In this document: in pieces, positions 4,176 through 29,332 of the stretch
Position numbering within the stretch: the stretch's first letter is position 1
Layout: each line of letters begins with the position of its first letter
DNA from: Panorpa germanica
Lineage: Eukaryota; Arthropoda; Insecta; Mecoptera; Panorpidae
Length of the DNA: 64,000 nucleotides
Direction: 5' to 3'
NCBI GenBank assembly: GCA_963678705.1
Contig: OY783220.1
Location: forward strand, 558,001 to 622,000
Program-made: the position numbers and the translations under genes
Notes under the pieces: generated by a model
The model's input: only the letters and a program-made list of their open reading frames with translations
What the model was told of the DNA's origin: nothing
Database searches by the model: none

Positions 4176-4179
4176 GGAG

Positions 4180-5019
4180 TGTAACCCAACCCCCTTATAT
4201 CTACTACTATCTATATATGGTGGTAGTTACTTATTTTATGAGAACGATTATACGATCTTCTCAAACGGGGGTTCTTTCATGGAGATCTGGTTCTCCTTGA
4301 GTCGGATGACGTAAGCTAATGCTAATTGTGGAGGCTTCTTTATCATTTAGGACTTATATACTTCATCTAATCATATTACATAAATATATTAGGTTTTACT
4401 TACTTTTTGTGCTTTCTGCAGGCTGCTTCCTCTGCTTTTGACAATCACTTTAATTTAACGCGACCGTTAATTCTAAGTACTTTATATAATTAAAACAATG
4501 TAATCATTAACACTATTTTCTTTATTATTCAAAAACTTAATTAATACAAATCTTAGTAACTTTAATAATCTTTGGGGCAACTATGACGACTGACTTAAAC
4601 CCGACCTAGTGATCTGATGGAAATGACCCCCTCTCCTTTCTTAAACTAGGTTTATATAGCTTAAAACCCTTTGTTTCAAAAGATGACCTCATTTAAACTT
4701 ATTCTGTCATCATGGCTTTGGTTTTGAGTTTGGTTTTAATATAAACATTATTTCAAACTACACGTGCCTTACGCACAAAAGAAGTTAGTTAATATTTCTC
4801 TTAAAAGTTATTGTAAATACTATGTCAGCAGTTTTGAGTATAATATTAATATGCGGACATGGTTCTATCGATAAAGCAATACTTAATGTAAATAATGTTC
4901 GCGACTGTAAGGCGACTAAAACTATTAAAAATACTTTGAATGTGAACCTTCCAATGGTTCCTAAATAGTTAGTTAAAATATATTATCAATAATTAATGAA
5001 TCTATATGGGACTGTTACA
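4180..5019 (-). repeat. Gypsy-1 3' LTR
   Basis: 840-bp long terminal repeat, bounded by TGTAAC and GTTACA with GGAG just outside at 4176-4179. It shares long blocks with the 910-bp LTRs of Gypsy-2. Confidence 0.93.
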
Positions 5020-7160
5020 TTACTCCCCATTTTTAAATTAAAATTTATAATCCAATGATTATAATTTTATTAGCCTTTCCCGTATTTTTAGATTCATTCA
5101 TAATTGAAACCTTAATAAAATAAATATAATTTAAAATTTAAATCAATAAATCAATCATATATAGTCGTTGATAATTAAAATAATTCTTCTTTATCTGCTT
5201 TATGTAGGTGATTTTGTTCTCATAGTTTCATAACAATATGCGAGTAACTTTGATAAATAAGTGAATACTTTTCTTCGTTTCGAATACGCTCTGCCTCGGT
5301 TTGTTTTCGAATGCGTCCTTGTCCTACTGCTTCACGACTTAGCATAGGTTTCATATTTCATATAAACAATACTGATAGTTTTTAATGGTCCGTAGTATTT
5401 GTAAATTCTCGTTCTGTTTACAATACTTGTAGATTAATACACACATGATATATGTTTTCTTCTTAAGTGATTACTGCTTCACTTAGACCCTCAATTTCTT
5501 CTGGATTATTCACGGACTTCGTCATTTCGTATTGTTTTTCTTCATCTTTCAATTTGCATCGATTTCATCGGAATCTTCATCTAACTAACGACTTGCATTC
5601 TGGTAGTTTCTCTCGTACATTCGATCATTGACTCGTTCAAGTATTCACAATTATTACCTTAGTCTTACGCATTATGAAAATCAACTACTAGTCTCATCCT
5701 TCAGTTCCTCGTTGTTGTAAATGCTGCAATTTATACCCTTACGTAATTATCTTAATTATAAATTCATTTTCTGTCTTCTTTTCTATAATTTCTTACAATT
5801 GACATAACAAATTTGGCTCTTATATAGCTCTTTTACTAATAATTCGATTAACTTTACTTAGAAGTTATAGTCATTACAAAATATGAATTTATTTCATAAC
5901 ATATCTTAATTTCTAGTTATTTTAATTATATTTTAAACATAACATGTAAATATCTTACGGCATGTGTTTCTTTTTTTTTTAATATCATCAATCTCTTCTT
6001 ATTACTTTTTTTTTCCTTTGATCGTTATATATATGTTTTCCAACTTTGCAATATTTATGCCATAAATTATTTTCATACCTCTTACAAACTACTGTTAATT
6101 CTACATAACAATGAAATTTAATGTAAACATATTTTTTTCTTTAATTAAAATACAAATTTAACTTTTCTCTTAAATTTAGATTCAATATTCCATACTTTAG
6201 TTTATTCTTTTATTAACGAATATTTTAAAGAACTTATTCTCATTTACTGTATTTTTTCCTATTTAACAAATTTATTATATTTAGTTTTCAAATCAAAACA
6301 TTATTCTAACATGTTTATATCAAAAATTTATTCTTAAATCTATTTATTAGTTTTCAAACAACAAAATCTTAACTTGATGGATATTTTACTCACATATAGT
6401 CAAGGTAAACATAATTTTTAAACTTCAACACTTGTTACTTGAATTTAAAACAACTTTTTATATTCGCATGAATTAATACATGTGTTTCACAAAATAAAAT
6501 TTCTTTTCTTCTATATTATATTATATCTCAATCTAATTTAACAATACAAGTGTTCAAATTTTCAATGAATACCTCTTATCAATTTTCAAATCTTCTTCTT
6601 TCCTTATTAAAATTTTCAAAACGATCTGTGAACAGAAAAACATTTTAATTTATTCAATATTTATGATATAAAATCTTCAATTAAGTCATCTTATTCTGCT
6701 TGCTACATTCATCATGTATCTTGTCCATCTGAAATTATATAGCATTAGTATATCTCAATAAAAAAAATTATTACTCTTTAAACGTTATTGTTACTCATGT
6801 TTCGTACATCTGTAACTTCTGGTCTAGTCTGTTTATTATTAAGTACCCTTATCTAATTTATGTTCTCAAACCCTCTGTTAAAAATCAAATTTATTATCAC
6901 TTATATACTCAAGTGTTAATTTCTTCTATGACCTTTCTGACTCGAATTTCAATACATCTGTTACAAATAACTTTAGTACCTAATTATATGTTTATTTTCT
7001 CAACTCATGACCTTTCTGTTTTTATGATTCTTTTACTCGTAAAATATTAAAGTACCATATTAGTCCTCATTTAACAACTACTTAAACAATAAAATAATCC
7101 CTTTTTCAAATTGACCTTAACTAATTTATATCCTATTGAAACTCTGACAGTTATAATTAG
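5020..7160 (-). other. Gypsy-1 3' noncoding region with polypurine tract
   Basis: No long ORF lies between the integrase stop and the 3' LTR. A purine-rich tract (AAAAATGGGGAGTAA on the minus strand, 5020-5034) abuts the LTR and would prime plus-strand synthesis. The region is homologous to 24431-26521 of Gypsy-2. A short conserved frame on the minus strand around 5230-5350 includes EAVGQGRIRKQT and AERIRNEEKYSLIYQS and may be a relic of a third ORF. Confidence 0.65.
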
Positions 7161-8534
7161 TTATATTCTACTATTCGATATCCACGGTTGTTTTGGTGCA
7201 ACGCATCGGCTGCGCAAAGAGTAACTATGCCCAATTGTATCTTCAACTGGATTTTCTATCTCTATATCAATATTCTCTATATTGTCATTATTATCAATAT
7301 TCGTGTCTATCTCGATTATTTCTTCTATCTCATCTGATATCTCATTATTCGTATCACTAGTATAACCAAAATTCAATAAATTACCGAAACCTGTATTTAG
7401 ATTCGTACCATTTTCTTCATCTTCAGATTCACTTTCTGAATGAACTTCATTATTTCCTGAGAATACCTCAGCTGTATTACCTTTAAATTTCTTGAGGCGA
7501 TTAACATGCACTCGTTCTTCCCGTTTTCCATAAATTTCCTTTATTAAAAAGTTTACTTCGCTGGTTCTATCAATAATTCTATAAGGACCTCGCCATACTT
7601 TTCCAAGTTTTCTACTTAATCCCGGTGTGTGCGTCATATGTTTCAATAGCACATGATCACCTATTTTAAATTTTACCGGTTCCGACTTTTTATTATATTG
7701 TTTAGCTTGTCTATCTTTTGCGGTTTCTAACCTTTCTGTACATAACTTAAAAGCGTTCTTTAATCTTAAAATTAATTCGGCGGCATAATTATCATCGAGG
7801 TCGTATCTAACTCTTTCAGGTTTTAATACTTCACCATATGGTAATACCATATCACGACCATGCATTAGAAAAAATGGTGTTTCTTGTGTCGAACTATGTA
7901 TAGCTGCATTGTATGCCATGACAGCGTAGTTTAAGCAGGAATCCCAATTCCTTTGATCAGAATCCACGAAATGTGACAAATAGTCTTTTAATATACGATG
8001 ACAACGCTCTAAACTTCCGTTTGTCGAAGGAGAATACGCTGATGTTGAAAGTTGCGTAATGTCTAGTCTTTTACAAACGTTTCTAAATAATTCGGACAAA
8101 AAGTTAGTTCCTCTATCTGTCAATAAAGCTTTAGGAGTACCATAACGTGCTATGACTTGTTCACAAAATACCTTTGCTACTGTTTCTGCAGACTGATCAG
8201 GTATTGCAAACGCTTGCAAGTATTTTGAGAATGCACATTGAACTGTTAAAATGTACTTCATTCCTGAATTACTGAGTACTAATGGTCCTACAATATCTAG
8301 TGAAATTCTTTCAAATGGATAAGTAAGCGGTTTAAATTTCTGTAACGGTGCTCGTTTTAAATGAGGTGAAGTTTTTCTCATTTGACAACTTAAACATTCT
8401 TCACAATATCTTTTTATGTCTTGTCTCATTGCTGGCCATACAAAATGTTTCTTTATTATCTGTAGTGTCCCTTCAAATGCCCTATGCCCTGCTGAAGGCG
8501 TATTGTGAAACATATATAATATATTCGGTACCAT
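7161..8534 (-). CDS. pol: Gypsy-1 integrase (pol C-terminal part)
   Basis: The integrase inserts the cDNA into the genome. The order seen from the first Met is as follows. A zinc-binding HHCC module has His10, His17, Cys47 and Cys50 in context MFHNTPSAGHRAF...CEECLSC. The RNase-H-fold catalytic core has the DDE triad at Asp80 (ISLDIVGPL), Asp140 (LLTDRGTNF) and Glu176 (PSTNGSLE). The GPY/F module is WRGPYRI (about 315-320), with RVHVNRLKKF after it. A Glu/Asp/Asn-rich tail of about 100 residues ends in SYSLRSR, like the YNLR-type tails of some Gypsy polyproteins. The frame is open a few codons upstream of this Met but is offset from the RNase H frame by an indel near 8548, so as written it could not be made as part of Gag-Pol. 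Confidence 0.92.
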   Translation of the reverse strand: MVPNILYMFHNTPSAGHRAFEGTLQIIKKHFVWPAMRQDIKRYCEECLSCQMRKTSPHLKRAPLQKFKPLTYPFERISLDIVGPLVLSNSGMKYILTVQCAFSKYLQAFAIPDQSAETVAKVFCEQVIARYGTPKALLTDRGTNFLSELFRNVCKRLDITQLSTSAYSPSTNGSLERCHRILKDYLSHFVDSDQRNWDSCLNYAVMAYNAAIHSSTQETPFFLMHGRDMVLPYGEVLKPERVRYDLDDNYAAELILRLKNAFKLCTERLETAKDRQAKQYNKKSEPVKFKIGDHVLLKHMTHTPGLSRKLGKVWRGPYRIIDRTSEVNFLIKEIYGKREERVHVNRLKKFKGNTAEVFSGNNEVHSESESEDEENGTNLNTGFGNLLNFGYTSDTNNEISDEIEEIIEIDTNIDNNDNIENIDIEIENPVEDTIGHSYSLRSRCVAPKQPWISNSRI

Positions 8535-8548
8535 TCGTGTTGGTGCTA

Positions 8549-9253
8549 CTACACAGTCATTTCTATCTGTTTTTTCATTACTTTTCTTATACAGTATACC
8601 CTGTCATCTAAATAATAATCATTTTTCTCCCCATACTTAGTTTGTGTTATTAATTGTTTAATATGGGAATCACTAGCTTGTTCATTTTTAATTTGACACC
8701 AATCCCAATATGGAACTTCTTCAGCTGCTACGGCTGCAATACTTTCTGTTTCTATTCTACTTAATGCATCGACATTACCGTGTTTTACCCCTGGCCTATA
8801 AATAATTTCAAAATCGTAATCTGCTAAAGTTAAAGCCCACCGTGCTAATCTACTTTTCATTGGATCTTTCATAGTCATTAACCAACGTAATGATCGGTGA
8901 TCTGTTTGAATCTTAAATTTCTTACCATATAAATACGTACGAAAATGTGATAAACTCCATAAAATCGCTAAACATTCCCTTTCTGTGGTTGAGTAATTTT
9001 TCTCACATTTATTTAATTTACGAGAAGCGTATGCGACAGGACGTTCTACTCCATCCTGAACTTGGCTTAGGATTGCGCCTAATGCAATTCCTGATGCATC
9101 TGTCCCTAATATAAATTCTTGACTAAAATCTGGGTAAGCTAAGACTGGCTCAGAACATAACGCGTTTTTTAATGCTTCAAAACTTTTCTCTTGTTCAGGT
9201 CCCCAAATAAATGTCTCATTTTTACAAGTTAGTTTTGTTAGGCTTGATGATAA
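8549..9253 (-). pseudogene. pol: Gypsy-1 RNase H segment of pol, isolated by stop and frameshift
   Basis: This stretch is in the same frame as the RT segment upstream and is separated from it only by TAA at 9254-9256. Recognisable pieces are the start of the RNase H domain (ILGTDASGIALGAILSQ), CEKNYSTTERECLAILW, FKIQTDHRSLRWL and the RNase H end DYDFEIIYRPGVKHGNVDALSR, followed by the linker to integrase. The frame ends in TAG TAG at about 8546-8551, where a small indel shifts it relative to the integrase frame. Normally this domain removes the RNA strand from the RNA:DNA hybrid. In this copy it lies downstream of a stop codon. Confidence 0.85.
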
Positions 9254-12067
9254 TTATGAAAAATTCTTTATAAATCGTCTATAAAATGAAGCTAACCCTA
9301 TAAAAGATCGGATTTGTTTAACTGTTTTCGGACGCGGATAGTTTCTAATTACTTCCGTTTTTTCTGGATCTGCCTTTACACCATCACTAGAAATAATATG
9401 ACCAAGATATTGCGTTTCTTTATTCATAAATTCACATTTGCTAGGCTTCAATGTCAAACTTGCTTCTCTCAAGCGATCGAAAACCTCTTTAATTCTCTGG
9501 ATATGTGAATCTACATCATCGTTACTAAATATTATAATATCATCTAGGTAAACTAAACAATGTACTCCGGTTAAACCCGCTAACACTGCATACATAAGTC
9601 TCTGAAATGTAGCAGGAGCTGATACTAAACCAAACGGCATAACATTAAATTGAAGGTGTAAATCAGGTGTCGAAAATGCTGTTAATTCTTTAGAATTTTC
9701 GTCCATTTCAATTTGCCAAAATCCCGATGCTAAATCTAATTTGGTAAATAAACTTGCTTTGCCTAATTTATCAAGAGTGTCTACTAAGTGTGGTAATGGA
9801 AAGTAATCTCTTTTTGTTATCGCGTTAAGACCCCTGTAATCTATGCAAACTCTAACCTTGTTTTTCCCATTTGCTGCTTTCTTATTTACAAGAACAACAT
9901 TACTGGACCACGGTGACATTGATGGTTCTACTATGCCATCTTCAAGCATTTGATCTATCTGTTCTCTCAGTACCTGTAACTGTGCATGCGGAACTCTATA
10001 TGGTTGTTTAGTTATAGGAGGAACATCTTGAATTATTATCTTATGTTTAACTATCGAGGTAGTCTTCAATTCTTGACCCTCTGTTAAGAATATGTCGACA
10101 TATTCGTAAATTAGATTTTCCATTTTACTTTGGTCTCTAGCACTTAAATGATTTAACTTTATTTTACTAAAAAGTTCCGTTATTCTCTGTGTTTTATTTA
10201 TATCATCATTCTTATGACTTTTCTGCTTCCACTGATTTGTAACTTCATGTATAATTTTATCTTCTTTAGCTGTTAAATTATTATACCCTATTTCATCAAA
10301 TAACTCTATATTTTCAAACCCTGTGTTTGTTTCTGCTGAACGTACAGCACTAATTAAAATATTTTTATTACGTTGCCGGACGTGTTCTCTTAATAATTCA
10401 ACTGTTTCAGTATATTCGTTATCATATGGCTCTATTATACCTATCTTAGTATTTATTGGTATATTTATACTCTTTTGCGTAACATTGGTTATTCTACATA
10501 TTAACCTACCCTTACATATTGAATTTACACTTCTTGCTACTAATACTCCATCTATACTCAATTCTGGGTTAAAAATCCCATGACCTTCCTTAATGTCTTT
10601 TTGAACTGCGTGAACATTTATTGTGCATCGGGGCGGTAACGTTTCTTGACCTAGTAACCTAACACTATACCGATTACTACTACACGTGTGTGCGTCTGTT
10701 CGCTTTCGAGTGGTTTCAGATTTCTCATTCATAGTTATGTTTATTTTTTCAGCTCGCTCAGCTGTGTGTATTCTTTTTAACCACCTTGTTTGTAAATTCT
10801 TCCATTTCTTTACTTGTTCTTGGGCTTTTATATACTTTCCGTCAATGTTACCTTTTAAATCTTTATCATTTTCATTTATTAAACAGTTCATATACCTTTT
10901 TTCATCTTTTTCCGATTCGCCATCATAGAATGCTATCTTTATTTTACTTTCAGAAAATATATATTCAATCATTTTACTCACTATTGTAAAATCTAATTTA
11001 TCTAGCCCACATGCTATGTATGGTAATGCAATAAATTTCACTTTATTTTCTAACATATGATCCCGTAATTTAATTATTGACGAATATAAATCTGCGTAGA
11101 GAGGTTTCTCGTTACTCCTCTTCTTTGTTACTAAATAATATATAAAACGATTTTCATCTTTTAATATAGCTAATCCACCCTTTTTCTGTTTCTGCTTCAA
11201 AAGCTGCTCAACTCTACCAAATCTATCTTTAAATTCAACTGCTATTCCTTGTGACATACGTAAATCTGAGGCTACACAATGACCCAATGCATACTTGCTA
11301 GATGCATTAAACAAATCTCCCTTATTAAAATTTATTTTGCACAACGTCTCTATCGTTGGAAATCTACTAATTTTCCATTTTAGAAAATCATCAAAACTTT
11401 TATAGTCATGCCCTATCTTATCAATTCGCTGATTATTTATTTCTCTTTTTACGTCAATATTTTCTGTTTCAGTACAACCTATATTTCTACCTTTTCTATT
11501 CTTTTCTACGATTTTCCCTGACTTTGATATTATACGCTTTTGCTTTCTAATGATACCCTTTATATTTTCTCTAATCATATTATTTATATTTAAATTATCT
11601 CTCTGAAAATCATGTACAGTATTACGATTAATGTCGTAAATAACGTTTCTGTATATTAAAATACCCTTTCCAAAATCTACAATTATCCCAAATTTACGAA
11701 GAAAGTCTAACCCAATTATACCTGTCCAATTTTCCATATTTTCTACAATTTCAAAATCAAAAGTCACATTATCCCCAAATAAATCTAACTTTAATCTGCT
11801 TTTACCAAGTGTATGTATTTTATTATTTTGTGCATCTCGCAAGATATTTTGCGATTCTGTAATTTTTTCTGTTTTTAAACATTCTTTAGTTAGTAGGCTG
11901 GCGCCTGCACCACTATCTATAAGAACATTGCAATTTTGACCATTAATTACTAAATTAAGAAACCATTGATTATCATGAAATGCCGGTACATACGACTCTG
12001 TAAGATTACCCTTTTTACTTATTGAATGGCTTCTACGTCTCGGGTAGTGAGTGAAGCCATCAATCCG
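9254..12067 (-). CDS. pol: Gypsy-1 Pol: protease, TARG1-like macro domain, reverse transcriptase
   Basis: The frame is open from the gag overlap at 12067, in -1 relative to gag; the first Met is at 11842, inside the protease. (1) The aspartic protease has its active site at LIDSGAGASLL (Asp codon 11915-11917) and a second half GIIGLDFLRKFG. (2) A macro domain lies at about residues 170-306 from that Met (10925-11335), with KGDLF, GHCVASDLRMSQGIAVEF, YYLVTKKR and ACGLDKL. It matches the single-domain hydrolase TARG1/OARD1 throughout. The two residues used by TARG1 for catalysis, Lys in TKKR and Asp in CGLD, are present (Lys240, Asp281). (3) A usual pre-RT spacer follows (about 390-480). (4) RT has VRVCIDYRGLN, FTKLDLASGFWQI, MPFGLVSAPATFQ and catalytic YLDD at 765-768. 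The segment stops at TAA (9254-9256) just after RT, where family members continue into RNase H. A macro domain between protease and RT is not normal Gypsy architecture. Its suggested role, removing ADP-ribose added by host PARPs, is inference. Confidence 0.93.
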   Translation of the reverse strand, partial: RIDGFTHYPRRRSHSISKKGNLTESYVPAFHDNQWFLNLVINGQNCNVLIDSGAGASLLTKECLKTEKITESQNILRDAQNNKIHTLGKSRLKLDLFGDNVTFDFEIVENMENWTGIIGLDFLRKFGIIVDFGKGILIYRNVIYDINRNTVHDFQRDNLNINNMIRENIKGIIRKQKRIISKSGKIVEKNRKGRNIGCTETENIDVKREINNQRIDKIGHDYKSFDDFLKWKISRFPTIETLCKINFNKGDLFNASSKYALGHCVASDLRMSQGIAVEFKDRFGRVEQLLKQKQKKGGLAILKDENRFIYYLVTKKRSNEKPLYADLYSSIIKLRDHMLENKVKFIALPYIACGLDKLDFTIVSKMIEYIFSESKIKIAFYDGESEKDEKRYMNCLINENDKDLKGNIDGKYIKAQEQVKKWKNLQTRWLKRIHTAERAEKINITMNEKSETTRKRTDAHTCSSNRYSVRLLGQETLPPRCTINVHAVQKDIKEGHGIFNPELSIDGVLVARSVNSICKGRLICRITNVTQKSINIPINTKIGIIEPYDNEYTETVELLREHVRQRNKNILISAVRSAETNTGFENIELFDEIGYNNLTAKEDKIIHEVTNQWKQKSHKNDDINKTQRITELFSKIKLNHLSARDQSKMENLIYEYVDIFLTEGQELKTTSIVKHKIIIQDVPPITKQPYRVPHAQLQVLREQIDQMLEDGIVEPSMSPWSSNVVLVNKKAANGKNKVRVCIDYRGLNAITKRDYFPLPHLVDTLDKLGKASLFTKLDLASGFWQIEMDENSKELTAFSTPDLHLQFNVMPFGLVSAPATFQRLMYAVLAGLTGVHCLVYLDDIIIFSNDDVDSHIQRIKEVFDRLREASLTLKPSKCEFMNKETQYLGHIISSDGVKADPEKTEVIRNYPRPKTVKQIRSFIGLASFYRRFIKNFS

Positions 12068-13131
12068 TTTAAATTACCCTCATAATTATTGGACGCGCGT
12101 AAATTTCTTTCTTCTACTTCGCTTGGCTTATTTTCGATGCTGCGAATATTTCTATTACTTTGGAAAGTAACTTGTCGCTGATTTCTCGCAGGACTACGGC
12201 TATCATTAAATTCTTGCAGGACTCTAACTCTACCTAATCGGTCATTACTTTGATTACGGTTTTCATACCTATTTGAACTGCGATTTCTTTGAAATCGATC
12301 TCTTACTTCCCTTTGAGGACGACTACGACAATCCCTCTGAAAATGTCCTACTCTGTTACAATTGTAACATCTTACTCCATCTCTTTGCCTATTATTTAAC
12401 CTTCGGCTTTGTGAACCGTTACGCGAGTTGCTAGGTCGCATAGACGATTGATTATTTTGAGATGCGCGATTTACATAATAGTGGTCGGTTCTATTTATTC
12501 GGTTTGTACCACCTGTAGCAATCTCTGCTACGTAGCCTTGCTTCGATGAGACTAAATCATCGGTTTCTACCCTTTCCGCAATTTCAACGGCACTATTAAA
12601 ACTCTTGGGATCCGCGGCCCAAATAAACTTAGAATATCTCGGCGATATCCCTTCTTTAAATCTTTTTAAAACGGCTACTTGCAACTCAACTGTGAGCTTC
12701 TTTTCTTGCTCTTTATCAATTGCTTCTGGTACACATTTTGAACCTAATGCCCATAACCTTTGTGAAAACTCATAGACAGTCTCGCCCTGTCTTTGTTTAC
12801 AACCCCCGAACTCAATTTCTGCTTGTCTCAGAGCAGATGGCCCTTTTCTGCTATATCTAGACAATAATGCATTACGAATACTCATATAACTACGGTTCTC
12901 ACTTTGAACCTCCGAATTAGACAAAAGATATTCAGCTACATCAGGCGACACTTTCGCAAATACGGTAACTGATTGCACCTTATCGGTCCAATCCAACAAC
13001 TCTGCCATTTGATTCACCGCATTTAAAAATGTTGCTATGCTACCTGTACCGTCAAAGAATGGTATATAATTCAATCCTTTTAATTTAGGAATTTCTGGGG
13101 CAATATCTACGTTTGGTTCATTAGTTGTCAT
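12019..13131 (-). CDS. gag: Gypsy-1 Gag (capsid and nucleocapsid)
   Basis: 370 residues. A retrotransposon capsid region (about 20-190) includes FEFSQR-type helices (LRQAEIEFGGCKQRQGETVY). A basic, Asn/Arg/Ser-rich nucleocapsid follows, with one CCHC zinc knuckle CYNCNRVGHFQRDC at 255-268 that would bind the genomic RNA. The protein assembles virus-like particles in the cytoplasm. The start ATG at 13131 is preceded by a long untranslated leader. The end overlaps pol by about 49 nt, with the frameshift heptamer inside. The frame is intact. Confidence 0.93.
   Translation of the reverse strand: MTTNEPNVDIAPEIPKLKGLNYIPFFDGTGSIATFLNAVNQMAELLDWTDKVQSVTVFAKVSPDVAEYLLSNSEVQSENRSYMSIRNALLSRYSRKGPSALRQAEIEFGGCKQRQGETVYEFSQRLWALGSKCVPEAIDKEQEKKLTVELQVAVLKRFKEGISPRYSKFIWAADPKSFNSAVEIAERVETDDLVSSKQGYVAEIATGGTNRINRTDHYYVNRASQNNQSSMRPSNSRNGSQSRRLNNRQRDGVRCYNCNRVGHFQRDCRSRPQREVRDRFQRNRSSNRYENRNQSNDRLGRVRVLQEFNDSRSPARNQRQVTFQSNRNIRSIENKPSEVEERNLRASNNYEGNLNGLMASLTTRDVEAIQ
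12067..12073 (-). promoter_or_regulatory. -1 ribosomal frameshift heptamer T TTA AAC
   Basis: In the gag frame the sequence reads AAT TTA AAC GGA, giving the canonical slippery heptamer U UUA AAC. It lies 16 codons before the gag stop and directly after the last upstream stop in the -1 (pol) frame. From here pol is open through the protease active site. I did not fold the downstream RNA for a pseudoknot or stem. Confidence 0.8.
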
Positions 13132-14224
13132 TTTAACTATTTGGAATAAACTTTAAATCAAATAAAAACCTTTAGTAAGCTTCAATAAACTACTACAAAT
13201 ATTTTAAAATCTATTTTTTTTTTAAAAGTAAACAATATCTTACACGGCCTTAGTTATTTTAACAAAACTGTACTCTTGTGATTTACTTTTTGAAACGAAA
13301 TGGAACGTCTAGTTGTTTATATATACATGAAAATAAACAAACAAATTATTTTTAAGTAGGTAAAACAAAATGCTAGTATATTTAATATAGACTGTTTTTA
13401 GAACAATAAAAACCCAAATAAAAATTATGACAAACAGTATTTATGACAAAAGTATATTACCGAATTGTAAATTGATAAAATAATTTTTAATTATTAGTGA
13501 AATAAAATCAAATAAACTATTTTATGTAATACTCAATATTTTCTCATATAATCTAAAAATAAATTCAAAATAATTTCAAATAAGTTGTGTTACAAATTTT
13601 TTAATCGTTCCAATCACTTAATAAAATTACGACAAAACAAAAACTACTTATTTTTTCAATTCCTGTTACAATGACTCTAAACTTTATACTTTATAAAAAC
13701 GTGCCACTTTACTTGTGAATTACAAAAACTATTTTAAAAAATATCCCTTATTTAGTTACGGTTAAAACAAAATATTCAACTTTAACAAGTTATGGTTTAG
13801 AAAAATTATCTACTGTTTAGTTCCTTAAATTTATTCCCTTTTACAAAAACTTAAAATACCCCACTCTTTGATTATTTAAATTTCCCCTTTTCTTTAATTA
13901 TGCTGATATCTTTTCTTTTTCTAATTATTAATATGCAGTTGCTAGTTGCAATTAATAAACTATATTTCTTTTTTTTTTCCAATTAATCCTTTTTATCCTT
14001 TTTTCCCAGTTACTACAATTTATTCCTTTTTTTCACAATTAATAAAACTTATTTTTATTTCTTTTTCCCAGTTACTAAGATTATCCCTTTATTTTCTCAA
14101 ATTAAATTTTCCACTTAATGCCTTTTTTCCCAATTACTCAAATTTCTGCCTTTTTTAACATCCCACAATTTTAATACCTTTTTTTAACGTATCTCTCTTT
14201 TAAAATAGATCTCTTTTTTATACA
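13132..14224 (-). other. Gypsy-1 5' leader
   Basis: About 1.1 kb of AT-rich untranslated leader between primer-binding site and gag. It contains repeated pyrimidine-rich blocks (on the plus strand TTCCCAGTTACTA and relatives, 13985-14150) that match the 44-bp tandem repeats in the Gypsy-2 leader. No ORF of its own. Confidence 0.7.
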
Positions 14225-14241
14225 CCCCACACCTGACACCA
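14225..14241 (-). promoter_or_regulatory. Gypsy-1 primer-binding site (tRNA-Leu-like)
   Basis: TGGTGTCAGGTGTGGGG starts three bases after the 5' LTR end. TGG complements the tRNA CCA end. TGTCAG resembles the complement of insect tRNA-Leu acceptor ends; the exact tRNA is not proven. The same 17 bases occur in Gypsy-2. Confidence 0.7.
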
Positions 14242-14244
14242 AAA

Positions 14245-15084
14245 TGTAACCCTACCCCCTTATATCTACTACTATCTATATATGGTGGTAGTTACTTATT
14301 TTATGAGAACGATTATACGATCTTCTCAAACGGGGGTTCTTTCATGGAGATCTGGTTCTCCTTGAGTCGGATGACCTAAGCTAATGCTAATTGTGGAGGC
14401 TTCTTTATCATTTAGGACTTATATACTTCATCTAATCATATTACATAAATATATTAGGTTTTACTTACTTTTTGTGCTTTCTGCAGGCTGCTTCCTCTGC
14501 TTTTGACAATCACTTTAATTTAACGCGACCGTTAATTCTAAGTACTTTATATAATTAAAACAATGTAATCATTAACACTATTTTCTTTATTATTCAAAAA
14601 CTTAATTAATACAAATCTTAGTAACTTTAATAATCTTTGGGGCAACTATGACGACTGACTTAAACCCGACCTAGTGATCTGATGGAAATGACCCCCTCTC
14701 CTTTCTTAAACTAGGTTTATATAGCTTAAAACCCTTTGTTTCAAAAGATGACCTCATTTAAACCTATTCCGTCATCATGGCTTTGGTTTTGAGTTTGGTT
14801 TTAATATAAACATTATTTCAAACTACACGTGCCTTACGCACAAAAGAAGTTAGTTAATATTTCTCTTAAAAGTTATTGTAAATACTATGTCAGCAGTTTT
14901 GAGTATAATATTAATATGCGGACATGGTTCTATCGATAAAGCAATACTTAATGTAAATAATGTTCGCGACTGTAAGGCGACTAAAACTATTAAAAATACT
15001 TTGTATGTGAACCTTCCAATGGTTCCTAAATAGTTAGTTAAAATATATTATCAATAATTAATGAATCTATATGGGACTGTTACA
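14245..15084 (-). repeat. Gypsy-1 5' LTR
   Basis: 840 bp, same ends as the copy at 4180-5019, followed by target duplication GGAG at 15085-15088. Confidence 0.93.
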
Positions 15085-15088
15085 GGAG

Positions 15089-19703: not shown

Positions 19704-19707
19704 ATAT

Positions 19708-20617
19708 TGTAACAGTCCCATATAGATTCATTAATTATTGATAATATATTTTAACTAACTATTTAGGAACCATTGGTAGGTTCACATACAAAGTATTTTT
19801 AATAGTTTTAGGCGTCTAAATGTCGTGAACATTATTTACATTAAGTATAGCTTTATCGATAGGACCATGTCTCATATTAGTGTTATACTCAAAACTGCTG
19901 ACTTAGTATTTACAATAACTTTTAAGAGAAATATTAACTAACTTCCTTGGTGCATAGGCACGTGCAGATACAAATAATGTTTATATTAAAACCAAACTCA
20001 AAAACCAAAGCTATGATGACGGAATAAGTTTAAATGAGGTCATCTTTTGAAACAAAGACCTTTAAACTATATAAGCTTAGAAATAGAAAGGAGAGGGGGT
20101 CAGTCCATTCAGATCAATCAGCCAGTTAGTACGTCGAGACCCAATCGAAAGGTCTGTCTATACAGACCCCGTCAAATAAGGGAGTAGCGCCCCTTAGTCG
20201 GTGGTTCGGGTATTAGTCAGTCGCTTTGATATAATAATGATAAAGTTACTAAGATTTGTATTAATTAAGTTTTGAATAATAAAAGAAAATAGTGTTAATG
20301 AAACCCTTGTTTTAATTGTAAAAGTACTTAGAGTTAACGGTCGCGTCGCGTTAAATTAAAGTGATTGTCAAAAGCAGAGGAAGCTGCCTGCAGAAAGTAC
20401 AAAAAGTAAGTAAAACCTAATATATTTATGTAATATGATTAGATGAGGTAATAAGTCCTGATAGAGATATAAGTCTCCACAATTAGCTTGGTCATCCGAC
20501 TCAAGGAGATCCAGATCTCTAAAAGAATCTTCGCTTGAGACGATTGTAAAATCGCTCTCATAAAATAAGTAACTACCACCATATATAGATTAGAAGATAT
20601 AAGGGGGTAGGGTTACA
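19708..20617 (+). repeat. Gypsy-2 5' LTR
   Basis: 910 bp, TGTAAC...GTTACA. It differs from the 840-bp Gypsy-1 LTR by an extra block (around 20100-20220) and scattered changes. Confidence 0.92.
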
Positions 20618-20637: not shown

Positions 20638-22024
20638 TCAATTAAAAGAAAAAGAAAGGTGTTGTAAAAGAGAGGTATTGAAAATTGTGGGGTCGTTTAA
20701 AAAGAGGTGCATTAAAAGAGAGATACGTTAAAATACGAAAATACGTGAGATACGAAAATTGTGGGGTGTATTGAAAAGAGGTGTATTAAAAGAGAAATAT
20801 GTTAAAAGAGAGGTATTGAATTTGTGGGGTCATTTAAAAGAAAAAGGGTATAGAAATTGTAAGGTATTTTAAAAGAGAGATATATTAAAAGAGAGATATT
20901 TAAAATTGTGGGATGTTTTAATAAAGGGATATTAAAAAGGCAGAAATTTGACTAATTGGAAAAAGGCATTAAGTGGAAAATTTAATTTGAGAAAATAAAG
21001 GGATAATCTTAGTAACTGGGAAAAAGAAATAAGAATAAGTTTTATTAATTGTGAAAAACGGAATAAATTGTAGTAACGGGGAAAAAGAAATATTATGAAA
21101 AAAGGAATAAATTGTAGTAACTGGGAAAAAGAAATATTATGAAAAAAGGAATAAATTGTAGTAACTGGGAAAAAGAAATATTGTGGAAAAAGGAATAAAT
21201 TGTAGTAACTGGAAAAAAAGGATAAAATTGTATTAACTGGGATAAAGAAATATAGGTTATTAATTGCAACTAGCAACTGCATATTAATAATTAAAAAAGG
21301 AATATAGTTTATTAATTGCAACTAGCAACTGCAGATTAATAATTAGAAAAGAAAAGATATAAGAATAATTGTGACGATACAGTACATTAAAGCTTGACGC
21401 TGGTTTCTGTGTCTTCAGGTTCGATTCCTGAATCAGTTTATATTCATGTGTAATATATAGGGGTTTGGTAATTATCATCTTATATTGTTTATGGACATAT
21501 ATGTAGTGAACGTATGCCTCATATATGTAATAGAAATAGTATGCCTATAGAAAAAGAATAATTGGAAAAGAAAAAGTTTAAATAATTGCAAAGGGAATAA
21601 TTTAACAAGGGTCAAATAGATTTGAACAAGTTTATTAAAGAAAGTTTATTAAAGAAAAAGGAAAGATTTTAAAATGTCAAATAGTACTGCAGTTATGTAT
21701 TTAAATTTCGGAGAAAGATATCAGTGTTGTATAACATTTAAGAGAGTAATAAATATGTGTGATTTATTAGGGTCACATAGTAAAGGTTCAGTTGGTTATA
21801 GCTACAGAAATATAACAAAGATTATGAATATTACGAGTATGTAAAAGAAACAGATTTGGACAACGATGTTTATATAAAGACTTGGAACGTAAATAAGGTA
21901 ATTAAAGAGTATTGATTGAATTTAACATGATTATTATAAAAACGGTAATATTTTGAAATGATTTTTGTAGAATGGTAATTAAATATAACAAGAAATAATA
22001 GATTGATTTACGGGTATTAAAAAA
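20638..22024 (+). other. Gypsy-2 leader with purine-rich tandem repeats
   Basis: Repeats of GTATTAAAAGAGAGATA type run from about 20640 to 20935. From 21060 to about 21230 there are four copies of a 44-bp unit beginning GGAATAAATTGTAGTAACTG. At 21255-21350 a 56-bp unit containing TTGCAACTAGCAACTGCA is duplicated, against a single copy in Gypsy-1. No ORF precedes the ATG at 22025. Confidence 0.75.
21371..21440 (+). repeat. SINE head fragment inside the Gypsy-2 leader
   Basis: GTGACGATACAGTAC...GCTTGACGCT...GTGTCTTCAGGTTCGATTCC aligns with the head of the SINE at 16085-16290. The B box and T-arm (TCAGG/CCTGA around TTCGATT) are clear at 21415-21432. It is absent from the Gypsy-1 leader, so it was gained on this lineage or lost on the other. 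Confidence 0.55.
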
Positions 22025-23380
22025 ATGGATAATTTAATAGATAGATTTAAAAAGTTGGAAGAAGGTTTACAGTTTTTACGGGAATTTGAAGAAAAAGATA
22101 GTATTACGTTATTTTTGAATCAGTTAGAGGGAATATCAGATGCTTTTAGTTGGAATAATAAAGAAAGGGTTTTTGCATTATCTGTAAAGTTGAACGCAAG
22201 GGTTCTAGAATTTCTACATGTTGTTTTAACTCGAACAGAATTAAAGGATTATGAAAAAATTAAGATAGAATTACTTAACAAATACAATTGTCGTAGACCT
22301 GCTGAGTTAATGAAAGCAGAATTTGATTTTAATTCTTGTAAACAAAACCATGGAGAGTCAGTTTTTAATTTTTCAGAAAGAGTAGCAGAATTAGCTAGAA
22401 AAACAATTAATATCAGTTTTGAACAAAGTATACGAGAATTACAATTAATGGAATTACAGCATAAGATTTTAAACAGATTTATATTGGGCTTACGTAACAG
22501 CTATTCTAGATTTGTTGATTACGAAAATCCAAAAACATTGGTCGAAGCCTTAACTTTAGCAGAATATATAGAATTAAAAGAAAACCGAAGTACTTTAGGT
22601 AACAAATATGTACAAGACAGCGTAAATTTTGATAGATTTGATAATGTTGAAAGCGAGGATACAAACTCTAATAAGTTTAGTATAGGACTAGACGAACTAA
22701 ACGAAAGTTCAACAGTAATTAAAATTGATACAGATGACGTAAATACATCGATAGAATTATACAGTGACAGGACAGATTTAGTCCATAGAAAGGGTACGAA
22801 CGAATTAGTTACCGAAGAAAATAATTTACAGGCAAATAATGATATTGAAGTAGAATTTGAACAAAATAGCATTGTTAACGGGTTAGTAGAAACATGTTGG
22901 GATAGTAATGGCTTAAATAAGGATAGAATAGAAGTAGATAAACTATGTGAGAATATACACGAAAGTATAATTGATAAAGAGTTAGAAAAAATAGATTCTA
23001 GCCGCGATGATAAAGATTTATTCAGTGAGGGCACTATAAACGAAATAATTATTGATGAAAAGAGAATTGGAAAAAATGTAAAAGATGTAAGGGAATCTGT
23101 AACAGATAGAATAGTTGCGAACACTATGAGCTTAAGCCTAGAAGAAAACAAACATGTTGAGAGAGATAATATCGCCATTGTTTTAAGAAAAAGAGAGTAT
23201 AATTTGCAAAGTAAACTGATTGATTTATTAATGATGAGTAATTTTAAAAGATTAATTTTGGGAATTTTCGCACTTATTAAGTTAAGCATTTATTTCATGA
23301 TTCTAATTAAGACGATGTTCAAGGAAACATTAGTGGTAAGCGTTAAACAGATTAATTTGCCGTTAGACATTAGAGAATAA
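22025..23380 (+). CDS. gag: Divergent Gag-like protein with acidic middle and C-terminal hydrophobic segment
   Basis: 451 residues, intact. Residues about 20-185 align with the Gypsy-1 capsid: LMKAEFDFNSCKQNHGESVF here matches LRQAEIEFGGCKQRQGETVY there, but overall divergence is large. There is no CCHC zinc knuckle and no basic nucleocapsid. Residues about 200-385 are rich in Asp, Glu, Asn and Ser. Residues 408-430 (RLILGIFALIKLSIYFMILI) look like a membrane-spanning helix with a short tail. How it would bind RNA is unclear. The tail may derive from a deleted third ORF (Env-like) fused to Gag when pol was lost; that is inference. It is the only protein the element encodes. Confidence 0.82.
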   Translation: MDNLIDRFKKLEEGLQFLREFEEKDSITLFLNQLEGISDAFSWNNKERVFALSVKLNARVLEFLHVVLTRTELKDYEKIKIELLNKYNCRRPAELMKAEFDFNSCKQNHGESVFNFSERVAELARKTINISFEQSIRELQLMELQHKILNRFILGLRNSYSRFVDYENPKTLVEALTLAEYIELKENRSTLGNKYVQDSVNFDRFDNVESEDTNSNKFSIGLDELNESSTVIKIDTDDVNTSIELYSDRTDLVHRKGTNELVTEENNLQANNDIEVEFEQNSIVNGLVETCWDSNGLNKDRIEVDKLCENIHESIIDKELEKIDSSRDDKDLFSEGTINEIIIDEKRIGKNVKDVRESVTDRIVANTMSLSLEENKHVERDNIAIVLRKREYNLQSKLIDLLMMSNFKRLILGIFALIKLSIYFMILIKTMFKETLVVSVKQINLPLDIRE

Positions 23381-26521: not shown

Positions 26522-26619
26522 TGTAACAGTCCCATATAGGTTCATTAATTATTGATAATATATTTTAACTAACTATTTAGGAACCATTGGTAGGTTCACA
26601 TACAAAGTATTTTTAATAG

Positions 26620-26896
26620 AGTTATGTTATTGCTAGTTATGTTATTAGTAAATAACAATAGTTAAAATAGTATATACTTTATTTATATTGATAAATAAAG
26701 CTTCTCTACAATTATCTACCTTTTATTAATAAATATTATCTCCTCGATGGAGTATAACTAAAGTACTTAAAACAACTGAATTAATTAATTAGTAAAACAA
26801 ATTGATTTAAGACAATTTGATTTAAATATTATTTGGTTACTTAGATAATATATTTATTATCTTGTTTAAGCATGATATTAGGGTCACTTGATAACT
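26620..26896 (-). repeat. Gypsy-3 3' LTR
   Basis: 277 bp, AGTTAT...ATAACT. The adjacent purine tract AAGGATGGAGG (minus strand, 26897-26907) is the expected plus-strand primer. Confidence 0.92.
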
Positions 26897-26950
26897 CCTC
26901 CATCCTTAGAGAGAAAAATAGAGAAATTTCGTGAAGGTGTCTCGATTTTT

Positions 26951-28858
26951 CTAGATGTAGTCGTCACTTCTGTTTCCTGATAAGAGTCCTGCAGCAATAG
27001 TATTTGTATTGGTTTTTCTCGGTGAAATTTGCTTTACATGAACATCTTTGATTTTATTGGTGACTGCATCGGAAATGGCTAATACTTTATTATCTTTGAT
27101 TGCTGTTACTTTATGTGGTCCTGTTTGTGGATTCGTTATCTTCCCTCTTTTTCTATCAATTCTTCCAATGTATACTTCTTGAATGTGTTTGTTCATATAG
27201 TCCCAATAGTATTTTTTTCTGATTATTTCTTCAATCATATTTTCCTCTAGTTTGTTGAAAATTGTTATACTTATATCATTTTGTTCATATGTTGGCTTAT
27301 CATAGTATTTTTCTTTTCTGTGAACATTTATCCACATAGTGTGTGCCTCTTTTTCTGAATCTTTTAGCTTTTCCGATAAGCACTTAGTTTTGTTTTCCTT
27401 TTCAATTTTTCGTTTTATTTTAAATTTTTTAATTTTCTTATTTTCTGCTTTTTCTTGCTTTATACTGTATGACTTTTCTACCTCGGAATATTGCATATTT
27501 TGTTTTCCTGGTTTTTCTTGTTTCATGTTTTGTTGTTTCTCTATTTCAATATCTTGTATAGTTTGCTTTTCTGCTACTTGGTTGATTCTTTGTTGATTTT
27601 TTACTTTGAAATCTTGAAAGTTTTGATTTTTTGTTTGTTGATTAACCTTTTGTTTATTTGGTATTTCAAAATGTTGTATTTCTTGATTCTTTGTTTCTTG
27701 TTTGACATTTTGCAGATTTTCTACTTTGAAATCTTGCATGTTCTCATCTTCTGTGTCTTGTTTGACGTTTACTTCAACAATTGAATTTTCATCGGTTTTT
27801 ATTTTAATAAATGTTTTAACATCTTTTTCGTTTACTTCTGAATTCCAAACTTCATCTGTAGTGTTTTCACTCTGTACTTTGATTTCAGTATTATACAGAT
27901 CCAATTTATTTGAATTCTGTGTATTTATTCCTGATGTAGTATCCATGGGCGTCCAATGCTTCTTAATTGGTTTATTAGGGTGTCGGTTCCATACGTTGCT
28001 CTGTTTGGAGAACATTGTTTCCGATTTTTGCTGGATAGTAGGGTTTGGTGCCCGCCAATTCTGTTGTTGCGGTTGTTGGAAATTGCTTTGTCTCCATGGT
28101 CTTTCACTATTAAAACCGGATGAGTGGGAAATATTAAATTTTTCCGATTGATTAGAGTAGTGGAATGTTCTTTGTGTCATTCTGACTGGTTGTTGTACCA
28201 TATTATTATTCATATTTTCTTCTTGTCTTTGCCAATTCCTATCGTTCTGTTCTTCCGTTACAATAGAGATTGCTTGTTCCAGTGTAGTGGGTGCTCTGGT
28301 TCTCAAGAATGATCCAAAAGGTTCCCTTAGGCCTGCTTTAAAAGATTTTAGAGCCACTTCGTCGTACATTTTTGTCTTCATATTTCTTTCTTCTATTGCT
28401 CCATTGCATTTTTGATTAGCATATAATAATGCTCTCAATTTTCTACATTTTTCGTAGAATTCAAGGAATGTTTCATTCCTCTGCCTTATTTCCATCAGTT
28501 CTCGCAGTAATGACATCTCATCTCTAGGGTCGCAAAATGCTTGTGTCAATGTCATTTTAATTTCTGCCCAGCTCTGTATGTCCCTTCCTTCTATTAGTGA
28601 GGCAGCTTTTCCAGTTAATTTTGCCCGAATCGCTTCTATTAAAGCGACGTTGTCGAAGCAATCTACTTTATTTTTATTGAAAAATTGTCCTAGTAACAAT
28701 TCGCTTGTTCTGATGTAGTCCGGTAAGCCTTCGGATCTACCATCATACTCTTTTATCATTCCCAAATATTGTTGGAAATTATTATTAGTTGACGTTGTCA
28801 TTTTTTCTTTTTTATTTATATTCAATTGTGTAAAAAGGTAATTCAATTGATCTACCAT
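26951..28858 (-). CDS. gag: Gag fused in frame to integrase GPY/F tail
   Basis: 635 residues, uninterrupted. The Met at residue 20 (28801) begins MTTSTNNNFQQY and may be the true start. Residues about 25-205 are a Gypsy-type capsid (SLLRELMEIRQRNETFLEFY, KSFKAGLREPFGSFLRTRAP). Residues 205-300 are Gln/Asn-rich. Residues 372-475 contain five degenerate 20-21-residue repeats of pattern QDFKVEN-QQ-(V/I)-KQE-KNQ, then a Lys-rich stretch. Residues about 560-615 (VYIGRIDRKRGKI, QTGPHKVTAI, KDVHVKQISP) match the GPY/F module at the C-terminus of Gypsy integrases. There is no zinc knuckle, protease, RT or DDE core. An in-frame deletion joining gag to the end of pol explains it. Whether the fusion still forms particles or targets integration is unknown. 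Confidence 0.85.
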   Translation of the reverse strand: MVDQLNYLFTQLNINKKEKMTTSTNNNFQQYLGMIKEYDGRSEGLPDYIRTSELLLGQFFNKNKVDCFDNVALIEAIRAKLTGKAASLIEGRDIQSWAEIKMTLTQAFCDPRDEMSLLRELMEIRQRNETFLEFYEKCRKLRALLYANQKCNGAIEERNMKTKMYDEVALKSFKAGLREPFGSFLRTRAPTTLEQAISIVTEEQNDRNWQRQEENMNNNMVQQPVRMTQRTFHYSNQSEKFNISHSSGFNSERPWRQSNFQQPQQQNWRAPNPTIQQKSETMFSKQSNVWNRHPNKPIKKHWTPMDTTSGINTQNSNKLDLYNTEIKVQSENTTDEVWNSEVNEKDVKTFIKIKTDENSIVEVNVKQDTEDENMQDFKVENLQNVKQETKNQEIQHFEIPNKQKVNQQTKNQNFQDFKVKNQQRINQVAEKQTIQDIEIEKQQNMKQEKPGKQNMQYSEVEKSYSIKQEKAENKKIKKFKIKRKIEKENKTKCLSEKLKDSEKEAHTMWINVHRKEKYYDKPTYEQNDISITIFNKLEENMIEEIIRKKYYWDYMNKHIQEVYIGRIDRKRGKITNPQTGPHKVTAIKDNKVLAISDAVTNKIKDVHVKQISPRKTNTNTIAAGLLSGNRSDDYI

Positions 28859-29045
28859 ATATTAATAGATGAACCTTTAATCTTCTTGTAGTCCTTTGTC
28901 CTTGGTCCTTAGTTATCAGTTCACTTCACTATATTTAACACAGCTTATTTTTAATTTTATTTAATTTTTGAATCTTCTTCCCTGGGGTGAGTAGATTTGT
29001 TCTTTTCCGTCACGATGCTTTGGTTTTATCTCCGCCGCTAGACGA

Positions 29046-29056
29046 CGACTGCGCCA
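29046..29056 (-). promoter_or_regulatory. Gypsy-3 primer-binding site (tRNA-Ser type)
   Basis: TGGCGCAGTCG begins with the last base of the 5' LTR, the overlap seen in 17.6/297-type elements. It complements a tRNA 3' end CGACTGCGCCA. Confidence 0.8.
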
Positions 29057-29332
29057 GTTATGTTATTGCTAGTTATGTTATTAGTAAATAACAATAGTTA
29101 AAATAGTATATACTTTATTTATATTGATAAATAAAGCTTCTCTACAATTATCTACCTTTTATTAATAAATATTATCTCCTCGATGGAGTATAACTAAAGT
29201 ACTTAAAACAACTGAATTAATTAATTAGTAAAACAAATTGATTTAAGACAATTTGATTTAAATATTATTTGGTTACTTAGATAATATATTTATTATCTTG
29301 TTTAAGCATGATATTAGGGTCACTTGATAACT
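29056..29332 (-). repeat. Gypsy-3 5' LTR
   Basis: 277 bp, read as identical to 26620-26896. Outside it lies ATAG (29333-29336). Confidence 0.92.

Follow-up and report, generated by a model that had tools for sequence, protein, structure and literature searches.

TARG1-type macro domains inside the pol frame of Ty3/Gypsy retrotransposons of Panorpa germanica

Introduction

Retroviral dUTPase is a captured cellular enzyme that occupies the same slots of pol as the domain described here, or slots close to them, with a different fold and a different chemistry, and macro domains acting as viral erasers of host ADP-ribosylation are known mainly from RNA viruses. Long terminal repeat (LTR) elements with a captured enzyme are known; a macro domain of the TARG1 type inside the pol of Ty3/Gypsy elements appears to be new. 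Here, we describe such an element in a stretch of 64,000 nucleotides of the Panorpa germanica genome (assembly GCA_963678705.1, contig OY783220.1, positions 558,001 to 622,000; hereafter the window), together with its relatives in the same genome. The domain had been proposed in an earlier note, which was made from the letters of the window alone.

Macro-domain reading frames are described for Epsilon-like endogenous retroviruses of ray-finned fish (Basta et al., 2009, cited in PMC4977317). Compared by description only, these retroviruses resemble the window element in being retroelements with an acquired macro-domain gene; according to PMC4977317, however, the gene is an additional reading frame of a vertebrate retrovirus, while the domain in the window is not a reading frame of its own and lies in frame inside a Ty3/Gypsy-type pol. 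For orchid Ty3/Gypsy elements, an AlkB-type N6-methyladenosine (m6A) demethylase domain with activity in vitro is described, the presence of which its authors propose to explain by surveillance on the part of the host (PMC9289625). The likeness is a Ty3/Gypsy element with a captured, modification-removing enzyme, while the enzyme is another one, is encoded in an additional reading frame and belongs to 25-kb plant elements; the word “macro” does not occur in the main text of PMC9289625. No Ty3/Gypsy element with a macro domain was found in the titles and abstracts listed by word searches of open-licence PubMed Central texts. Searches of viral contigs with a single-domain query and with an alignment of the element domains gave 16 and 72 pattern matches, respectively, none of which was a relative.

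The cellular enzyme TARG1 (also OARD1 or C6orf130) is described as stripping ADP-ribose from glutamate and aspartate and from thymidine in DNA, and as protecting cells against DNA ADP-ribosylation; its K84A mutant fails to rescue DarT toxicity, which marks Lys84 as catalytic by mutation (PMC8501950). Activity of TARG1 is also reported on ADP-ribosylated phosphate ends of double-stranded DNA and single-stranded RNA (PMC11088682).

Results and Discussion

A TARG1-type macro domain in the pol frame

The domain lies in one open frame of 939 amino acids, with a protease upstream and a reverse transcriptase (RT) downstream, and all four motifs named in the earlier note are read in this frame. In a tblastn comparison with human TARG1 it was 46% identical across the whole domain (window 10925-11338), which agrees with the span of 10925..11335 given in the note. 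Searching the solved structures by phmmer returned five TARG1/OARD1/C6orf130 sequences with E-values of 7.6e-38 to 9.4e-38, followed by 5m3i at E 0.24. A profile built from five element domains and the host gene matched TARG1 at about 1e-50; the next structures were 5m31, 5m3i and 7omu, with E-values of 2e-7 to 2e-6. Of the macro domains with a solved structure, TARG1 is therefore the one that matches best along the whole length of the domain, and the TARG1-type identity that the note had assigned holds in both kinds of search (8e-38 and about 1e-50). In the PDB, 5m31 is labelled Appr-1-p processing domain protein and 5m3i RNase III inhibitor; we take both to be DarG. The bacterial DarG macro domain, as the next structural relative by profile (E 2.4e-7 for 5m31, 4.4e-7 for 5m3i), is far less similar than TARG1. 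DarG is part of a bacterial toxin-antitoxin pair and not of a transposon, and it is described as reversing toxic ADP-ribosylation with a catalytic lysine (PMC8501950).

Two residues of TARG1, Lys84 and Asp125, the latter of which we assume to be catalytic as well, align with Lys317 and Asp358 of the pol frame. These are the residues that the earlier note had numbered Lys240 and Asp281, both numbers being offset by 77. Asp20, His32, Cys33 and Gly43 of TARG1 are also kept in the window copy, and the family to which this copy belongs (family A) has alanine in place of Gly121. The likeness to TARG1 thus consists of the 46% identity and the two retained residues; the difference is that the element domain forms an intron-free inner segment of a Gag-Pol polyprotein. 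Its predicted macro fold follows from sequence similarity. The macro core is also preceded by a short stretch similar to the one found ahead of the domain in the TARG1 gene of the host.

The Pfam Macro model scored the domain below its cut-off of 22 bits, both as a cut-out piece (E 0.0022, 18.4 bits) and within the frame (E 0.0095, 16.3 bits), so such elements may escape annotation. The earlier note had held that the lack of any profile match would speak against its reading; the TARG1 match stands by phmmer and by profile, while Pfam Macro alone stays under its cut-off. As sequence and profile searches agree on TARG1, we discarded an artefact of motif reading, and since one open frame holds the domain, the protease and the RT, a host gene merely adjoining the element was discarded too. 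None of 20,000 single-base shuffles contained an open frame of 420 nucleotides.

Seven families with the domain

The mitochondrial COX1 of the genome is read with the invertebrate code and looks insect-like, and a telomere motif had two matches, against three for its reversed control. The genome was queried with the family A domain, the best 150 of 591 candidates were scored, and 40 further stretches were fetched for domain mapping. Among these best 150, family A accounted for at least 53 matches at 90–100% identity, plus two pieces on contig C95; at least eight of its rows lie in open frames of 1636–1638 amino acids, and long open pol copies thus exist outside the window. One further locus (L043, 64%) is a decayed relative of the family. 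With this many matches a single odd copy is ruled out, and the absence of the domain from other copies, which the earlier note would have counted against itself, is not what the genome holds.

Six further families, which had not been part of the earlier note, carry a domain of this kind, and in them it occupies two different positions within pol. The rows of family B were mostly 40–48% identical to the query, and at least 18 have a frame length of exactly 1389 amino acids (best 150 of 591); the remaining rows belong to families C, D, E, F and G, with 28–36% identity to the A domain. In families A and F the protease is followed by the macro domain, a linker and RT, while in B, C, D, E and G the macro domain follows RT and RNase H; B, D, E and G have an integrase further downstream, and none was seen in the stretch of C that was read. 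Pfam Macro was weak in A and B, and with 22.4 bits in C it attained its cut-off of 22; at E 0.05 it did not report D, E, F and G, whose assignments rest on searches with A and human TARG1.

The domains of families A to E are only 27–47% identical to each other, and both the lysine and the aspartate are kept. Across the 64 fetched loci of these five families, the lysine equivalent was found in 62 and the aspartate equivalent in 63: both in 30 of 31 loci of A each, in 23 of 23 of B, 2 of 2 of C and 5 of 5 of D, and, in E, the lysine in 2 and the aspartate in 3 of three. An in-frame domain with both residues kept in five families is therefore present in many copies and in several families.

A separate query with family G, of which the best 150 of 557 candidates were scored, gave matches of 88–100% identity throughout, and by our own count at least 94 of these rows lie in frames of exactly 1652 amino acids (for example C5:3926752). 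Of the families seen, G, whose macro-like domain is catalytically divergent, has the most members.

As a separate observation, three family B matches lie at C5:16555248, 16561609 and 16567970, at a spacing of exactly 6361 bases, apparently as a tandem array of element units.

Selection on the domain

The ratio of nonsynonymous to synonymous differences (pN/pS) was determined over open, gapless, distinct copies; a copy with stops, gaps or short coverage was dropped for the piece concerned. The loci of family A were the 30 best matches to the window domain, including that of the window itself, and the loci of family B were picked by hand across the ranking, plus the two best matches to human TARG1. 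As copy pairs share history, the intervals are rough.

For the macro domain, pN/pS was 0.30 in family A (95% interval 0.15–0.55; 28 of 30 loci, 26 distinct) and 0.29 in family B (0.16–0.51; 19 of 23 loci, 17 distinct), while the spacer following it reached 0.92 (0.58–1.65; 25 loci) and 0.57 (0.26–1.01; 19 loci), respectively. The other pieces of family A gave 0.17 for the protease (18 of 30 loci), 0.50 for the spacer before the macro domain (23), 0.33 for the linker (17) and 0.09 for RT (18); those of family B gave 0.13 for RT (17 of 23), 0.14 for RNase H (19), 0.33 for the spacer before the domain (19) and 0.25 for the integrase (14). In both families the macro domain has fewer amino-acid changes than expected without selection, and we rejected an absence of selection on it. 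The dN/dS near 1 that the earlier note had named as fatal to its reading is thus not seen.

Origin of the domain

The genome holds a host TARG1 gene on contig C19 (L080, L081), which is broken by introns (splice points placed by eye), one of them directly after the loop with the catalytic lysine (..KKKSNG/KPTY..). The element macro domains that were read have no introns. As the host gene has introns and a related element (L082, described below) lacks the domain at this place, capture is the likely origin, as the earlier note had supposed; the absence of introns suggests TARG1 mRNA as the probable source of the domain. Similarity of the stretch before the domain to the host gene gave permutation p values of 5e-5 in A, 6e-4 in F, 1e-3 in C and 0.03 in B; the values for D, E and G were 0.17, 0.37 and 0.07.

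In a domain tree without F and G, family A grouped with host TARG1 (support 92/89) and C, D and E with each other (100/100). With the same two families left out, the approximately unbiased test (p-AU) did not reject a clade of A and B (0.093), all element domains together (0.156), B with C-D-E (0.345), A with C-D-E (0.124), B with human TARG1 (0.167) or B with host TARG1 (0.094). An RT tree of 19 rows gave the groups A+F, B and C+D+E+G, which fit the place of the domain in pol except for B, which has the slot after RNase H in common with C, D, E and G. Because the domain occurs at two different places in pol, there was perhaps more than one capture.

Gypsy elements without the domain

The RT at C18:507571 (frame of 1439 amino acids) is 58% identical to that of family A. 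In the stretch upstream of it (L082), the protease is 34% identical to that of A (E 2e-23), and no macro domain was found between protease and RT, the slot that was read; a linker-like stretch was recognized by eye only and had no BLAST match. In another RT group (L083), no macro domain was found in the slot read there, the spacer before the integrase. A spacer from an RT group at 51% (L084) was faintly and questionably similar to TARG1, with E 0.04 against three short stretches. Among the 102 RT rows that do not belong to family A, at least 11 had a macro match within 4 kb (positions copied by hand, searches before the F and G queries) and at least 24 once the F and G searches were added.

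Possible functions of the domain

The findings are best explained, with a probability that we put at roughly 0.55, by captured ADP-ribosyl hydrolases which probably counteract ADP-ribosylation of element protein or nucleic acid. The domain would be made as part of Gag-Pol and either cut out of the polyprotein or kept in the particle, and it would remove ADP-ribose from aspartate or glutamate of element proteins, from the RNA or cDNA of the element at phosphorylated ends, or from both, and so reverse a host modification of the PARP type that would otherwise hinder the element. As the substrates of TARG1 include glutamate and aspartate of proteins as well as DNA and RNA with phosphate ends, either element target is possible. 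That TARG1 is found in pol hints that ADP-ribose tagging may act against such elements. One precedent for ADP-ribosylation acting on retrotransposons, although by way of chromatin, is the mono-ADP-ribosylation of KAP1 by SIRT6, described as silencing L1 in mammals (PMC4695847).

Several observations weigh against captured hydrolases of this kind. In family F, Lys84 is replaced by arginine and Asp125 by cysteine in all seven loci, and in family G, at the one locus examined, the lysine is kept and Asp125 is replaced by threonine; judged by these losses, hydrolase function of the TARG1 kind is improbable for F and G. As family G is the most numerous, TARG1-type catalysis is not needed for success there. 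The macro domain of family A is under weaker constraint than its RT (0.09) and protease (0.17), and the value for the domain is, moreover, biased downwards, as choosing loci by their match to the domain favours conserved copies. The single-sequence fold of the domain was poor (mean predicted local distance difference test score, pLDDT, 47.7). The domain tree of all 25 rows recovered C-D-E (100/99), while A, B, F, host TARG1 and human TARG1 had no resolved placement. Finally, 78 of the 102 RT rows outside family A had no macro domain within 4 kb among the matches listed, and many Gypsy elements of this genome may thus do without it. The six further families, two of which have lost catalytic residues, thus widen the finding and complicate a purely enzymatic reading.

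An active hydrolase could also have a housekeeping use and, on the model of retroviral dUTPases that clean the nucleotide pool, remove O-acetyl-ADP-ribose, adducts of ADP-ribose or similar nucleotides that arise where cDNA is nicked or where the element integrates. The residues needed for this are kept in families A to E, the location within pol suggests a role in reverse transcription or integration, and TARG1 is described as guarding cells from DNA ADP-ribosylation (PMC8501950); the occurrence in several families would, however, fit a strong, element-specific pressure somewhat better, and we regard a housekeeping use as rather unlikely. Less probable still is a domain that mainly binds ADP-ribose or nucleic acid, for example to steer the particle or the integrase to poly(ADP-ribosyl)ated chromatin, or that spaces Pol, catalysis being secondary or lost. 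The frames of F and G, which stay open despite the loss of catalytic residues, would agree with this, as would the position after RNase H in five of the seven families, with the integrase beyond it in four. Retention of both lysine and aspartate in five families at 27–47% identity would be unexpected for a pure spacer, though, and as the TARG1-conserved Asp20, His32 and Cys33 are changed too in F and G, these domains may not bind ADP-ribose either. A captured gene piece that rides along by chance, without use, is very improbable: L082 and L083 lack the domain at the places read, as such a passenger would allow, but the pN/pS of about 0.3 in A and B, against 0.92 and 0.57 in the following spacers, and the persistence of the frames in seven families, five of which retain both catalytic residues, speak against it.

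If the domains are indeed captured hydrolases directed against ADP-ribosylation, a wider scenario may tentatively be considered, in which ADP-ribosylation is a standing host defence of this animal group against LTR retrotransposons, Gypsy elements captured TARG1 from host mRNA at least two times at two points of pol, the domain stayed under selection, and F and G, having later lost the catalytic residues, escaped otherwise or repurposed it. If true, this would be the first known Gypsy counter-defence enzyme against ADP-ribosylation. The presence of TARG1 at two places of pol, and in more than one family, would be a sign that ADP-ribosylation restricts endogenous elements in animals, and families with and without the catalytic residues form a natural set for testing such restriction.

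Architecture of the window copy and neighbouring elements

The window element is a Ty3/Gypsy LTR retrotransposon on the minus strand at 4180-15084, with two LTRs, a target-site duplication and, by Pfam, the order protease, RT, RNase H and integrase (Table 1). This copy is damaged downstream of the macro domain, a point that the earlier note does not make: an in-frame stop at 9254-9256 terminates the RT frame, and a frame shift separates RNase H from the integrase. An env gene, as would mark an Errantivirus, was not found in the window copy, where 5022-7160 contains no minus-strand segment longer than 50 amino acids.

Table 1. Features of the family A element in the window (aa, amino acids; nt, nucleotides).
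Feature	Window position	Strand	Evidence or remark
5' LTR	14245..15084	-	840 bp; 99.4% identical to 3' LTR, 5 mismatches, no gaps
3' LTR	4180..5019	-	840 bp; aligned to 5' LTR, also detected as repeat
Target-site duplication GGAG, copy one	4176..4179	.	letters adjoining LTR end
Target-site duplication GGAG, copy two	15085..15088	.	letters adjoining LTR end
gag frame with CCHC zinc knuckle	12019..13152	-	open frame; zf-CCHC E 2.1e-6; 55-nt overlap with pol frame
pol open frame, 939 aa (protease, macro domain, linker, RT; in-frame stop at end)	9254..12073	-	
Aspartic protease region	11624..11998	-	gag-asp_proteas E 7.5e-6, just under cut-off; RVP 21.5 bits (cut-off 20.7)
Protease active site DSGA	11906-11917	-	
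TARG1-type macro domain	10919..11398	-	core 10919-11338, residues 246-385 of pol frame; PDB phmmer, tblastn, permutation test
Lys317 codon, equivalent of TARG1 Lys84	11123-11125	-	alignment
Asp358 codon, equivalent of TARG1 Asp125	11000-11002	-	alignment
Linker segment, macro domain to RT, common to family F	10274..10663	-	tblastn to F, ~35%
Reverse transcriptase	9257..10033	-	RVT_1 E 4.9e-38
RNase H, severed from RT by in-frame stop	8549..9253	-	RT_RNaseH E 2.2e-42
Integrase (H2C2, core, p58-type C-terminus), in other frame in window copy	7161..8603	-	Integrase_H2C2 E 1.5e-18, rve 1.6e-12
Stretch from pol to 3' LTR, no env-sized frame	5022..7160	-	longest stop-to-stop segment 50 aa

A second LTR element lies on the plus strand, from window position 19705 to beyond 29632, and its LTR is 93–95% identical to that of family A (inverted match). 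One of its LTRs was located at about 19708-20101, and the other is apparently split by a nested insert (26522-26624 and from 29333). The element contains a gag-like frame of 457 amino acids (22007-23380), no RT was found in it, and it is perhaps a non-autonomous relative. The nested insert (26620-29332) is related to family D, is shortened and carries a pair of identical 277-bp repeats; its minus-strand frame of 636 amino acids (26951-28861) runs from gag into scraps that by eye resemble the D macro domain and the end of the integrase. At 43-657 and 2288-2902, the window also holds identical frames of 204 amino acids in opposite orientation, about 1.6 kb apart, which form an inverted duplication.

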